A DNA stretch of 64,000 bases, from NCBI GenBank assembly GCA_013289475.1, contig JABCZW010000001.1, positions 62,001-126,000 on the forward strand. The letters run 5' to 3'. The DNA comes from Bacteroidota bacterium (GTDB taxonomy: Bacteria > Bacteroidota > Bacteroidia > JABEUT01). Positions 37,128-41,709 of the stretch are shown in pieces. A program made the translations under genes and the position numbers. Every line of letters starts with the position of its first letter. Within the stretch, counting starts at the first letter, position 1. The notes under the pieces were generated by a model. The model was not told the DNA's origin, did not search any database, and saw only the letters and a list, made by a program, of their open reading frames with translations.

Positions 37128-37591
37128 GTTATAAATTGACAATTGAGTGTTGAAAATTGAAAGTGGTTTTGTCGCGAATTTTGTAATCATTTGGAGGGGT
37201 ATTGGGAGGAATGGTTTCTTGTATAATTATCTGGTTTTCAATATTAAAGTGGTGCATGAAGCCTGAAAATAAAAATGTCGTTTTTTGTCGTAAAATGGCG
37301 TAAAAGAACGCCATTTTTGTTCCTTTCCCAATGTTTATAATATGTTTCAGGCTTTTTTGTGTCTTTTGTCCATGTTTTGGGCTTTTTATGCCCCTGGGCG
37401 GTATGTTGAGATTTTTCAAGCATAGACGCAAAGCCGCAAGGTTTTCCATAATGTTTTTGTTTTAGTGGTTAATAGAACAAAGATACCCAATAAGTTTATT
37501 ATATGTAATAAAATAGTTAATTTGTTTTCAACAGCTCAAATTATGTGTTACCCAAACTTTTTCGTACCTTTACCTAAATAAACTAGCCACT
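37128..37591. other. Intergenic region with no supported gene
   Basis: About 460 bp between aconitase and the first SBBP-repeat gene. A minus-strand frame at 37129-37449 (106 codons) has no family, no signal and an unusual composition, so I do not call it. A piece of the form CATAGACGCAAAGCCGCAAG at 37421-37440 resembles the GACGCAAAG-type dispersed intergenic repeats common in this phylum. The right end has a TACCTTTA box (37565-37572) that could serve the downstream gene. Confidence 0.5.
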
Positions 37592-39319
37592 TTGAAAAAG
37601 TATTTACTCATAGGTTTTTTATTTGTTTCGGTTGTTGCTTCGGCACAATCGTGGATGTGGAGTAATGCAGGGATGAATAGTAGTCATGCCTATTGTGATC
37701 CATGGGCAATGTGTGCGGATAATAATGGGAATATATTTGAAACAGGAATTTTTAATGATACAATAAGTTTTGGTAAATATTCAATAAGCACAGTAGGTTC
37801 TACAACAGCATTTTTAGTGAAATACAATCCATCAGGTAAAGTATTGTGGACGGTAGCCCCAACCTTGTATGGTGAAAATTTCTCGAATGGTGTTGCGGCA
37901 GATGCATTTGGGAACTCGTACATTACAGGAAATTATAGAGATACAATACAATTTGGAGCGTATCAGCTGTTTGGCAAAACCTATCCTAATAAAGTAGTAG
38001 AAGCAGGGAGTACATTCCTTGTGAAATATGATTCAACCGGTAATGTTATTTGGGCCTTAAGTTCAGAGCAACCTTCTGTAGGTAGCTTTTCTATGAGTGA
38101 AGCTATTACTGTTGACCTTGCAAATAATATATACATTACTGGTTTCTATTCAGACACAATAAGTTTTGGAGGCAGCCAATTGAAAGTTAGTGATCCTCTT
38201 AATGCCGGAATGTTTCTTGCTAAATACTCGCCAATAGGTTCTTTAATCTGGGTCAAAGGCGGTGAGCTAACTTGTAGCGCCTATAAAATGTCTGAATTTC
38301 AGCAGCCAAGCCTTTGCGTAGATAAGGAGAATAATATTTATTTTTCCGGAGGTTTCAAGGACACGTTATATTTTGGAGGGAGTTTACTTAATAATGGTGG
38401 AGTAACCGGGAATTTTTTTTTAATGAAGCTCGACTCAAGTGGTACAATACATTGGGAAACAACAGGTATAGGAAGCAGTAAGATTTTCTTTTGGGAAGAT
38501 CCTGCGGGGAAGATACCTTGTGCCGTTGATGCTTATAATGATGTTTACATTGGTGGAGCATTTTACGATTCAATACAAATTGGTAATACTATATTAACCA
38601 CCAATTCAGAAAAGGGCATTTTTCTTGCAAAATATGATTCGTCAGGCAAAGTATTATGGGCAGAAGGAAGTACTGGGGCGGCAAGTAATATTTATGCAGC
38701 ATATGGATTAAGTGCTGACAAATGGGGTGACCTTTATTTCTGTGGTGATTTTGAAAATACCTTCATGACTTTTGGCGGTGTTACACTAAATACATCAAAT
38801 ACTGCTCCGTCATTTCTATTTAAAATAGATTCTTCGGGCAAAGTAATATGCAGTGCTCAAATTAATAATTATAATGATGATAACAATGCAATTGTAGCTG
38901 ACCCGCTGGGAATAAATGTTTATTTCTCTGGCGATATAGATGCACAGGATGTCCCAAAGTGTGTCTTTGGCAACGATACGCTAATTGGGTTAAATGAATA
39001 TTCTTTTATGGCTAAATGGACTTGCGGTGGTATAGAAGGAATAAATAATATTCCGGAACCAAATCAAACTACAATTCTTTTTCCCAATCCCAATAAGGGC
39101 GTATTTACAATAAAGTCGTCAGTTGATAATCGTCAGTCGTTAGTGGAGGTTTACAATATGTTGGGAGAGAAGGTATATACAGCCTCCCTAAATCCCTCCA
39201 ACGGAGGGACTTTAAATTCAATCGATATAAGTAACCAACCTGCTGGTATTTATTTATACAGGGTTAGTTCAGAAGAAGGTCAACTTATTTCGAGTGGGAA
39301 ATTTGTGATTGAGAAATAA
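37592..39319 (+). CDS. Secreted SBBP-repeat protein with T9SS type A sorting domain
   Basis: 575 residues starting at a TTG. Signal peptide LKKYLLIGFLFVSVVASAQ, then six SBBP-type beta-propeller repeats, each with F(L)xK(Y)DxxGxxxW (FLVKYNPSGKVLW, FLVKYDSTGNVIW and so on) paired with a D.(Y.T)G.F...I.FG strand. The sixth ends in Cys instead of Trp. After a short linker comes a type A T9SS C-terminal domain (FPNPNKGVFTIKSS ... LISSGKFVIEK). It should be exported by T9SS and attached to the cell surface. Binding partner unknown. The next gene begins 1 bp after its stop and is a tandem paralog. Confidence 0.87.
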   Translation: MKKYLLIGFLFVSVVASAQSWMWSNAGMNSSHAYCDPWAMCADNNGNIFETGIFNDTISFGKYSISTVGSTTAFLVKYNPSGKVLWTVAPTLYGENFSNGVAADAFGNSYITGNYRDTIQFGAYQLFGKTYPNKVVEAGSTFLVKYDSTGNVIWALSSEQPSVGSFSMSEAITVDLANNIYITGFYSDTISFGGSQLKVSDPLNAGMFLAKYSPIGSLIWVKGGELTCSAYKMSEFQQPSLCVDKENNIYFSGGFKDTLYFGGSLLNNGGVTGNFFLMKLDSSGTIHWETTGIGSSKIFFWEDPAGKIPCAVDAYNDVYIGGAFYDSIQIGNTILTTNSEKGIFLAKYDSSGKVLWAEGSTGAASNIYAAYGLSADKWGDLYFCGDFENTFMTFGGVTLNTSNTAPSFLFKIDSSGKVICSAQINNYNDDNNAIVADPLGINVYFSGDIDAQDVPKCVFGNDTLIGLNEYSFMAKWTCGGIEGINNIPEPNQTTILFPNPNKGVFTIKSSVDNRQSLVEVYNMLGEKVYTASLNPSNGGTLNSIDISNQPAGIYLYRVSSEEGQLISSGKFVIEK

Positions 39320-39320
39320 A

Positions 39321-41654
39321 ATGAAAAAATATTTACTCATAGGTTTTTTATTTGTTTCGGTAATTACTTCGGCACAATCGTGGTTATGGGGAGAACAGGG
39401 TAATGGCGGAGCAGGTGGTAATTATGACGAAGGAACTTCAATAACAAGAGATAAGTTTGGCTATGTATATGAAACCGGCGCATTCACAGGAACTATTTAT
39501 TTTGGTTCAAACGTATTAGTTGCAAATAGTGCAACGTGTTTTTTTCTGGTAAAGTATGATACAAGTGGTAATGTAATTTGGGCAACACAATCAATAAATA
39601 GTGGCATAACTGTTGCCAGCGGATCTTCAGTTGCAACTGATTCAGCAGGATGTGTTTATTTAGTTGGCAACTTTAGTAAAGCGCTAACTATTGGCTCATT
39701 TAATTTAAATAATAACAATAATAACTTTAGTGTTTTTCTGGTAAAGTATGATAAAAATGGCAATGTTATATGGGCAAGGCAATCTGTTAGTAACGGCAAT
39801 TCTGATGGCGCAGGAATGTCGGTTGCATGTGATGTATTTGGTAAAGTATATATAGCAGGGTACTACCAGGGTGGTATTAAATTTGGTGCAAATTCTATTA
39901 CTTGTGGTTATCAGAGTGCTTTTTTAGCAAAGTACGATTCAAGCGGCAATGTTATTTGGGTACAGCAGCCGAATAATTATGCTAATTATAGCGGAGCGTC
40001 TGCTGTTTGTGTTGACCCGCTTGGCAATGTCTTTATTACAGGAACCTTAAGTATGAAAATTAGTTTTGGCTTAAATATATTGAATAGCACCGGGTTGGAT
40101 GCCTTTATTGCAAAATATGATTCAGGTGGCAATGTTTTATGGGCGCAGCAATCGGTAAATGGAGGTGCCCAGGGAAATGCTATTGCTGCCGATGGTGCCG
40201 GAAATGTTTACGCTACCGGTAGTTTTAGCAAAGGGAATGCCATATTTGGTTCATATACTTTAAATTATACCTCAGGAAATAATTTTATTTTTTTTGTGAA
40301 ATATGATGCAATAGGTAATGTACTATGGGCTACTACTGGCACGCATACCGATAATAATAGCTGGGGTGGATGGGCGGTGGCGACAGATGAATTCAGGAAT
40401 GTTTACCTGTGTGCAGGTAGTCCGGTTAGTGTAAGGGGACTGCATAGTATTGCATTTGGCTCGGTACCATTATCGGTAAGCAATGGTTTTGATCCCGTTT
40501 TTATAATGAAATTTGATTCTTTAGGGAATGCAATTTGCGGTTCTATGATAGCCAGTGGAGGAGATGATAATGTTGGATTGGCTGTAGACCCAACAGGCAG
40601 GTATGTATACGTGGGTTCAGATATTTTTGAAACCCGTGTGGCTTTAGGAAATGATACAGTAGGCACAACAGGTGCTGCCGAATGGCCATTTGTGGCACGA
40701 TGGCAGGAATGTTGCGGTATAAAATTAAATCTGTCTACATCAGATACAGCAATTTGTTCGGGAAGCAGTTTAAAGCTTGCAGCAAGTGGAGGGTTAAATT
40801 ATTTGTGGAGTACCGGTGCCACTTCAGCAGGAATTAGTGTAAGCCCAGGCAGTGATACCATATATAGTGTTAAAGCCGGCAATTATGTATGTACAATTGA
40901 TACTGCTATAAATGTTGTTGTCAATCCCTTGCCTGTTCCATCGGTTAATGGTACGCAAAGTATATGCCTTGGTAAATCGGCGGTATTAAATGCCGGTGGC
41001 GGAACAGGGTATACATGGATGCCTATTGCAGGACTGAGTTCCAGCAATATTGCAAACCCTGTTGCTAGCCCCTTGGTTACAACTACATATACTGTTACAA
41101 TTTACAATGGTATTTGCAGCATTAAGGATAGTGAAGTAGTAATTGTAAATGCAATTCCGGTAATTAGTGTTTGTTGCGATTCTACAATTAATCTCGGACA
41201 AAATGTGCAGCTTAATTCCTCCGGTGGCGTTTCATACTTATGGAGTCCTTCAACCGGGCTTAGCTGTTATACCTGCCCTGATCCTATTGCTTCACCTTTG
41301 CAAACAACTACCTATTCTCTTATTGTAACAAGCGATAGTGGCTGTTCATCAAATTTAAACCTGACCATCGATATTATATGTGGTAGTATATTTATTCCTG
41401 ATGCCTTTTCACCAAATGATGATGGTCAAAATGATATTTTGTATGTGAGAGGTGACTGCATTAAAACAATGCTTTTTGTGATATTTGACCGTTGGGGGAA
41501 TAAAGTGTTTGAAAGTACCAGTTTAAATTATGGATGGGATGGAACATATAAAGGGCAGCCGATGAATATAGGTGATTATGTATATTATTTAAATGCTACT
41601 CTATACAATGGGTCTGCTTATACTAAGAAAGGTAGTGTGGCTTTAGTGAGGTGA
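39321..41654 (+). CDS. Secreted SBBP-repeat protein with T9SS type B (gliding motility-associated) sorting domain
   Basis: 777 residues from the ATG at 39321. The signal peptide (MKKYLLIGFLFVSVITSAQ) and the six-repeat propeller match the upstream gene, and the first 67 bases of both genes agree at 61 positions. After the propeller (ending FVARWQECCG) the proteins part: here come Ig-like/PKD-like segments with repeated ICxGxSxxLxAxGGxxYxWxP motifs, then a type B C-terminal domain of the CHU_C/gliding motility-associated kind (IFIPDAFSPNDDGQNDIL, FVIFDRWGNKVFES, WDGTYKGQPMNIGDYVYYL). Exported by T9SS. The remains of a type A sorting signal lie just after its stop. Confidence 0.87.
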   Translation: MKKYLLIGFLFVSVITSAQSWLWGEQGNGGAGGNYDEGTSITRDKFGYVYETGAFTGTIYFGSNVLVANSATCFFLVKYDTSGNVIWATQSINSGITVASGSSVATDSAGCVYLVGNFSKALTIGSFNLNNNNNNFSVFLVKYDKNGNVIWARQSVSNGNSDGAGMSVACDVFGKVYIAGYYQGGIKFGANSITCGYQSAFLAKYDSSGNVIWVQQPNNYANYSGASAVCVDPLGNVFITGTLSMKISFGLNILNSTGLDAFIAKYDSGGNVLWAQQSVNGGAQGNAIAADGAGNVYATGSFSKGNAIFGSYTLNYTSGNNFIFFVKYDAIGNVLWATTGTHTDNNSWGGWAVATDEFRNVYLCAGSPVSVRGLHSIAFGSVPLSVSNGFDPVFIMKFDSLGNAICGSMIASGGDDNVGLAVDPTGRYVYVGSDIFETRVALGNDTVGTTGAAEWPFVARWQECCGIKLNLSTSDTAICSGSSLKLAASGGLNYLWSTGATSAGISVSPGSDTIYSVKAGNYVCTIDTAINVVVNPLPVPSVNGTQSICLGKSAVLNAGGGTGYTWMPIAGLSSSNIANPVASPLVTTTYTVTIYNGICSIKDSEVVIVNAIPVISVCCDSTINLGQNVQLNSSGGVSYLWSPSTGLSCYTCPDPIASPLQTTTYSLIVTSDSGCSSNLNLTIDIICGSIFIPDAFSPNDDGQNDILYVRGDCIKTMLFVIFDRWGNKVFESTSLNYGWDGTYKGQPMNIGDYVYYLNATLYNGSAYTKKGSVALVR

Positions 41655-41655
41655 A

Positions 41656-41709
41656 ATGTTTCTGCCAAGTGAACTTATTTCGAGCGGAAAGTTTATAATT
41701 GAGAAATAA
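41656..41709 (+). pseudogene. Remnant of a T9SS type A sorting-domain 3' end
   Basis: Bases 41668-41709 read SELISSGKFIIEK-stop, almost the same as the last residues of the 37592-39319 product (QLISSGKFVIEK-stop), and the DNA is likewise close (cttatttcgag..gaaa.tt..gattgagaaataa). It follows the stop of the type B gene by 13 bp. Too short to be a gene; it is best read as a leftover of the type A tail that the second gene once had. Confidence 0.65.

Follow-up and report, generated by a model that had tools for sequence, protein, structure and literature searches.

Type A and type B tails consign T9SS cargo to different shuttles and different surface fates. In P. gingivalis, the type A tail is cleaved off and A-LPS takes its place, and cargo with a type B tail bind PorP-like proteins (PMC9143113); the shuttle for type A cargo in F. 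johnsoniae is PorV, and type B cargo depend there on shuttles of the PorP/SprF kind (PMC12618676). Tail swaps in the latter organism re-target the protein, such that RemA or AmyB fitted with the SprB type B tail moves along the cell and SprB fitted with a type A tail is immobile (PMC12618676). Here we describe, in a 64,000-nucleotide stretch of Bacteroidota DNA (the window), two adjoining genes for predicted T9SS cargo that lie on the + strand with one base between them and carry different tails, the second gene being followed by a 41-bp piece of a type A tail (see the table).

Profile matches at the C termini identify gene 1 as predicted type A cargo and gene 2 as predicted type B cargo, in agreement with the original prediction from the bare sequence that the two tandem genes end in different sorting domains. 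Gene 1 matched PF18962 (Por_Secre_tail) at 50 bits over residues 496–572 (cut-off 27) and the NCBIfam model TIGR04183 at 44.5 bits (cut-off 23), whereas gene 2 matched PF13585 (CHU_C) at its C terminus at 58 bits (cut-off 27) and the NCBIfam model TIGR04131 (Bac_Flav_CTERM) at 53.9 bits (cut-off 35), together with an SBBP match at 32 bits. Inspection of the proteins by eye revealed that each has six copies of the KYD.SGNV.WA repeat and a terminal strand, confirming the six-repeat propeller, and the common signal peptide that had been claimed is likewise present at the two 5′ ends. The start codon is TTG in gene 1 (37592) and ATG in gene 2, in an otherwise nearly identical context, a possible difference in expression. 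Upstream of gene 1, 53 bp (37489–37541) match positions 693–745 of L155 (G000:C33) in reverse orientation at 87% identity, and may belong to an uncharacterized dispersed element.

Features of the gene pair and of the DNA behind it (positions in the window)
Feature	Position	Strand	Description
Gene 1	37592..39319	+	signal peptide, SBBP-type propeller, type A T9SS tail; TTG start; 575 aa
Gene 1 signal-peptide segment, common to gene 2	37592..37660	+	68 bp at 91%
Gene 1 type A sorting domain	39077..39319	+	PF18962 match at 39077-39307 plus last codons
Gene 1 last 41 bp, homologous to remnant	39279..39319	+	35/41 identical
Gene 2	39321..41654	+	signal peptide, SBBP-type propeller, Ig-like region, type B T9SS tail; 777 aa
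Gene 2 signal-peptide segment	39321..39389	+	68 bp at 91% to gene 1
Gene 2 Ig-like region	40716..41390	+	protein identity 55.5% to C67 gene (L085_2743m), 49.5% to C18 (L087), both own-genome
Gene 2 type B sorting domain	41391..41654	+	complete to GSVALVR and stop; 66-70% identical to genome's other orphan type B domains
Putative stranded type A tail end (ELISSGKFIIEK, stop)	41669..41709	+	35/41 to gene 1 end

The two genes resemble each other closely at their ends and poorly between them. The dot plot by which the original prediction hoped to place a breakpoint, read with pairwise alignments, returned long DNA homology only at the signal peptide (68 bp, 91%) and at the terminal 41 bp (85%), but no long match through the propellers, where the other matches are short and confined to the repeated KYD.SGNV.W motif. 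The propellers share ~36% protein identity. In a tree of 66 propeller sequences, that of gene 1 belongs to a clade of nine members (support 100/100), which holds two type B genes of the same genome and genes from three other species, while that of gene 2 falls outside; constraining the two as sisters costs 24 log units, a constraint that the AU test does not reject (p 0.114). Simple tandem duplicates would be expected to show roughly uniform similarity along their length, the altered tail excepted, and the two genes do not (91% for DNA of the signal peptide versus ~36% for protein of the propeller). We consider this discrepancy, with its lack of any propeller DNA match, a stronger argument against plain tandem duplication than the tree. 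Given such unlike propellers, the signal-peptide match needs either a recombination of its own or a single event that exchanged the whole stretch lying between the signal peptide and the end of the tail.

The 5′ ends also bear on the direction of transfer. DNA homology of gene 2 to gene 1 ends about three codons beyond the likely cleavage site. Homology between gene 1 and L058 (G001, same clade) spans the promoter-like TACCTTTA region as well as the signal peptide, and gene 2 has only the signal peptide in common with this 5′ region, not the promoter region. Because the L058 match runs through the promoter in gene 1 and covers the signal peptide only in gene 2, the signal peptide most likely moved from gene 1 to gene 2, with gene 1 appearing to hold the older 5′ end.

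The remnant reads (GT)GAACTTATTTCGAGCGGAAAGTTTATAATTGAGAAATAA and codes for ELISSGKFIIEK followed by a stop codon. It begins 14 bp after the gene 2 stop and in a frame different from that of gene 2, which rules out stop-codon read-through from gene 2 into the tail. The vestige had been placed at 41656–41709; a type A end is indeed present there, but 41656 is the ATG of a 17-codon frame (MFLPSELISSGKFIIEK, stop) and the homology starts only at 41669. The six differences from the end of gene 1 comprise four third-position changes along with conservative replacements (Q/E, V/I), and such mostly silent or conservative differences are expected if both ends diverged while coding and the stranding is recent.

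We scored every stop codon in 460 kb of the same 2.6-Mb genome, including the 3′ flanks of 31 type B genes, with a profile of the last 12 residues of type A tails. The remnant reached 20.1 bits and was the sole orphan type A end above 14 bits among 48,892 stop codons, whereas base-shuffled DNA peaked at 14.4 bits. These values, together with E-values of 2e-8 for the pairwise match and 8e-7 against the genome, rule out a chance match as its source. They also uphold the earlier claim of a type A vestige: a remnant of this kind is not common behind unrelated genes, as no other orphan occurs in the 460 kb, and no type A scar was found behind 76 further type B ends in the genus. By sequence, 41669–41709 thus qualifies as a type A end stranded outside coding sequence, of a kind that is rare in the rest of the genome. 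It is only modestly specific to gene 1. Of the 147 type A ends, that of gene 1 comes nearest, and two unrelated type A ends elsewhere in the genome match at 33/41, because of which descent from a gene 1-like tail is likely and not proven.

A second case comes from another genome of the genus (G008, C29). The type B gene L120_2932p, of the same propeller family and outside any tandem T9SS array, is followed by 84 bp of decayed type A tail (L120 4625–4708) that begins 4 bp after the type B stop. This remnant is recognizable as NQQNGIYQYRVLN and, further on, KLIGEGKIIIQK with a stop codon, is broken by a frameshift, and matches a type A gene at 72% of 87 aligned positions; it would represent an independent second scar. 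Tail scars stand behind 2/13 type B propeller genes, and about 100 further type B ends from the genus yielded none; the numbers are small.

Further type A end remnants lie at L114 and L123, with no type B gene nearby. The one at L114 (minus strand 1603–1726, G002:C106) sits between two tandem type A genes and has in front of it a hairpin, CCCGACATTTATCGTCGGG, which may be a mobile or repeat element with a part in the rearrangement. On the minus strand of L116 (6616–6700, G002:C21), ESGTLISNGKFVIE with its stop codon lies ~33 bp beyond L116_5295m, whose product is a beta-propeller-like cargo that differs at its C terminus. The signal peptide of L116_5295m resembles its neighbor's, while the homologue in G008 (L105_10625m) bears a different signal peptide and is without a scar; this remnant is a possible third scar, left out of the counts as short and scoring 1.9 bits in hmmsearch. 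Orphan tails at L097/L042, at a contig edge, and at L115 and L116_1681, in broken genes, were set aside.

We compared tail type with propeller ancestry across the family, which comprises 45 type A and 13 type B tails, the distant propellers having mostly type A tails. Parsimony requires 11 changes of tail type on the propeller tree (shuffled labels: mean 11.9, minimum 7); trees at 35–40% identity have many weak branches, and restricting the count to strongly supported ones still leaves at least six changes. Propeller phylogeny is no better than chance as a guide to tail type. The five type B propellers of the genome do not form a clade (p-AU 7e-5), and for its seven related type B domains a clade is compatible with the data (p 0.215); for the three type B propellers of G008 a clade is rejected (p 0.008), and their type B domains group at 91/88. 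Gene 2 conforms to this pattern: its Ig-like plus type B part is 59% identical to that of the C67 gene, while the propellers are only ~38–40% identical, those of C67 and C18 (L087) falling in the clade of gene 1. These comparisons, and the second scar in G008, argue that members of this propeller family do exchange type A and type B tails, and have done so repeatedly. The sorting-signal exchange foreseen by the original prediction is thereby supported for the family, but not the simple duplication by which it was to have come about.

We searched relatives for earlier states of the locus. An intact version of gene 2 with a type A tail was not found in 11 genomes of the genus, where the nearest propeller is 42% identical; the wider genome contig collection holds only distant relatives of gene 2 (≤32%), and no donor was found, the genome itself being 57% complete. 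The gene downstream of the locus is nearly absent from the genus, and the flanking aconitase gene is present in relatives. Beside aconitase in G008 (L090 744–8362, C75), where gene 1 stands here, there is a run of tandem T9SS genes, with at least two type A genes whose mature parts are unrelated and a third signal-peptide gene. Since these mature parts are unrelated, the locus in G008 does not supply a before-and-after pair, and the cargo at this address appears to have changed, marking the aconitase side as a probable spot of cargo turnover.

We lean toward reading the remnant as a non-coding scar: a gene with a type A tail would once have stood where gene 2 is now, and recombination would have brought a propeller/Ig-like/type B module, or only its Ig-like/type B end, into that gene. 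The incoming sequence would have carried at its 3′ end the whole Ig-like/type B module and a stop codon of its own, leaving the final 41 bp of the former tail untranslated. The likeliest single event would have acted on a second copy of gene 1 and replaced what lay between its signal peptide and the end of its tail, a course favored because the gene 2 signal peptide is a near copy of that of gene 1 and the propeller is not; nearly as likely would be two events, a C-terminal swap and a signal-peptide conversion from gene 1. We infer both the order and the mechanism of these events. At the 3′ junction no homology to a type B gene is visible, so the crossover there would have been illegitimate. 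The scarcity of scars, carried by only 2 of about 113 type B genes examined, counts against the exchange reading.

A different history would start from a tandem array of three T9SS genes, with gene 2 of type B from the outset: a deletion beginning directly behind the gene 2 stop codon would have spared only the last 41 bp of gene 3, and the signal-peptide match would have arisen in a separate conversion between genes 1 and 2. We judge this less likely, yet a competitor to be taken seriously. One deletion is a simple event, tandem type A gene arrays are common in the genus, including that beside aconitase in G008, and the type A remnants at L114 and L123 suggest that gene loss can make such remnants where no type B gene is involved. 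However, a lost third gene leaves the signal-peptide match without explanation, does not account for L120, where the remnant follows the type B stop so closely outside any array, and gives no reason for scars to gather, small as the numbers are, behind type B propeller genes and not behind other type B genes. A recent whole-gene tandem duplication, with Ig-like and type B sequence later inserted over the tail, is the history that the original prediction had put forward. It would fit the adjacency, the common signal peptide and tail end, and the membership of both genes in one propeller family, but it is not borne out by propellers that are so dissimilar next to signal-peptide DNA so well preserved, nor by a clade of gene 1 that excludes gene 2 (although the AU test does not formally reject sisterhood of the two), and we regard it as improbable. 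Least credible is that the 17-codon frame is a functional, translationally coupled peptide. Its start one base past the gene 2 stop and the third-position and conservative character of its differences from gene 1 are what such a peptide might show, yet it is without signal peptide or domain, its counterpart in G008 is frameshifted, and conservative changes are expected anyway if most of them predate the stranding.

Sharing of tails between otherwise dissimilar genes extends beyond this locus. Neighboring genes at L147, L156, and L116 share tail DNA at 93% over 219 bp, 91% over 134 bp, and 94% over 106 bp, respectively, with no similarity of their mature parts. Among same-genome pairs of the same tail type, tails at least 80% identical over at least 80 bp with no mature similarity occur in 3/19 neighbors versus 8/2,953 others (p 4e-5); with mature identity below 45% the figures are 4/8 versus 2/516 (p 3e-7), statistics that are descriptive, the loci having been chosen for holding T9SS genes. 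Type B tails seem to be homogenized too, as two adjoining type B genes at L085 (G000:C67) are 89% identical over their last 451 bp and 31% identical in their mature parts. Signal peptides are shared likewise at L099 in G006 (92% over 171 bp). At L097 (G002:C22, minus strand, 1–271 and 1795–2064), a segment of 271 bp that spans tail end, gap, and next signal peptide is repeated at 95.6% identity, while the cargo genes around it are little alike; it looks like a cassette junction. We tentatively raise the possibility that turnover of T9SS surface proteins in the genus proceeds by cassettes set between constant ends. Signal peptide and sorting tail would serve as recombination arms shared by neighbors and the mature part would be replaced, sometimes along with the tail type, so that cargo and mode of attachment could change in one event that occasionally strands a scrap of tail.

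The change of tail would have consequences for handling of the protein. By analogy with the characterized systems, a protein with the type A tail is predicted to be handled by PorV and anchored covalently or released, and one with the type B tail to need a PorP/SprF-type shuttle. A cognate PorP/SprF gene frequently, though not universally, lies beside a type B cargo gene. None of the five PorP/SprF (PF11751) genes above cut-off in the 57% complete genome adjoins gene 2, which would therefore depend on a shuttle encoded elsewhere; an adjoining shuttle gene, considered as support for a recent arrival of the type B tail, was dismissed, as there is none nearby. The same genome (G000) encodes more than 130 type A tails and about 33 strong type B tails against these five shuttle genes, suggesting that most of its type B cargo are orphans.

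If tails are naturally and often exchanged, the mode of attachment becomes an evolvable property, independent of the cargo domain, and the surface location of a protein is then not inferable from its mature domain or from a homologue. The pattern offers a testable recombination model for how Bacteroidota diversify their surface repertoire, in which scars would serve as datable records. In the open-access literature, to which our search extended (subscription papers lay outside it), we found no report of natural exchange between type A and type B tails or of stranded tails.

Gene conversion among tandem paralogues is a known process, which the present pattern resembles in that tail DNA is shared chiefly between neighbors; unlike in such conversion, the sharing is limited to the sorting tail or signal peptide, and the mature parts are little or not alike. 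Surface proteins of P. gingivalis exported by the T9SS likewise diversify by recombination and gene conversion, but the cases considered here concern adhesin or catalytic domains and alleles between strains, with no change from type A to type B and no stranded tails among them (PMC5266723). With no adjoining PorP/SprF gene, gene 2 is comparable to three orphan type B substrates of F. johnsoniae (PMC12618676), PorP-like anchoring being described in PMC9143113; unlike those orphans, which have a shared shuttle, gene 2 has a shuttle that is only presumed, in a genome where about 33 strong type B tails face five PorP/SprF genes. The closest parallel is with the CTD swaps of F. johnsoniae (PMC12618676), in which type A and type B tails are exchanged as they may have been here. 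Those swaps were engineered, whereas the exchange proposed here, inferred from sequence as it occurs in nature, would have left a scar and is a repeated one in a single propeller family.
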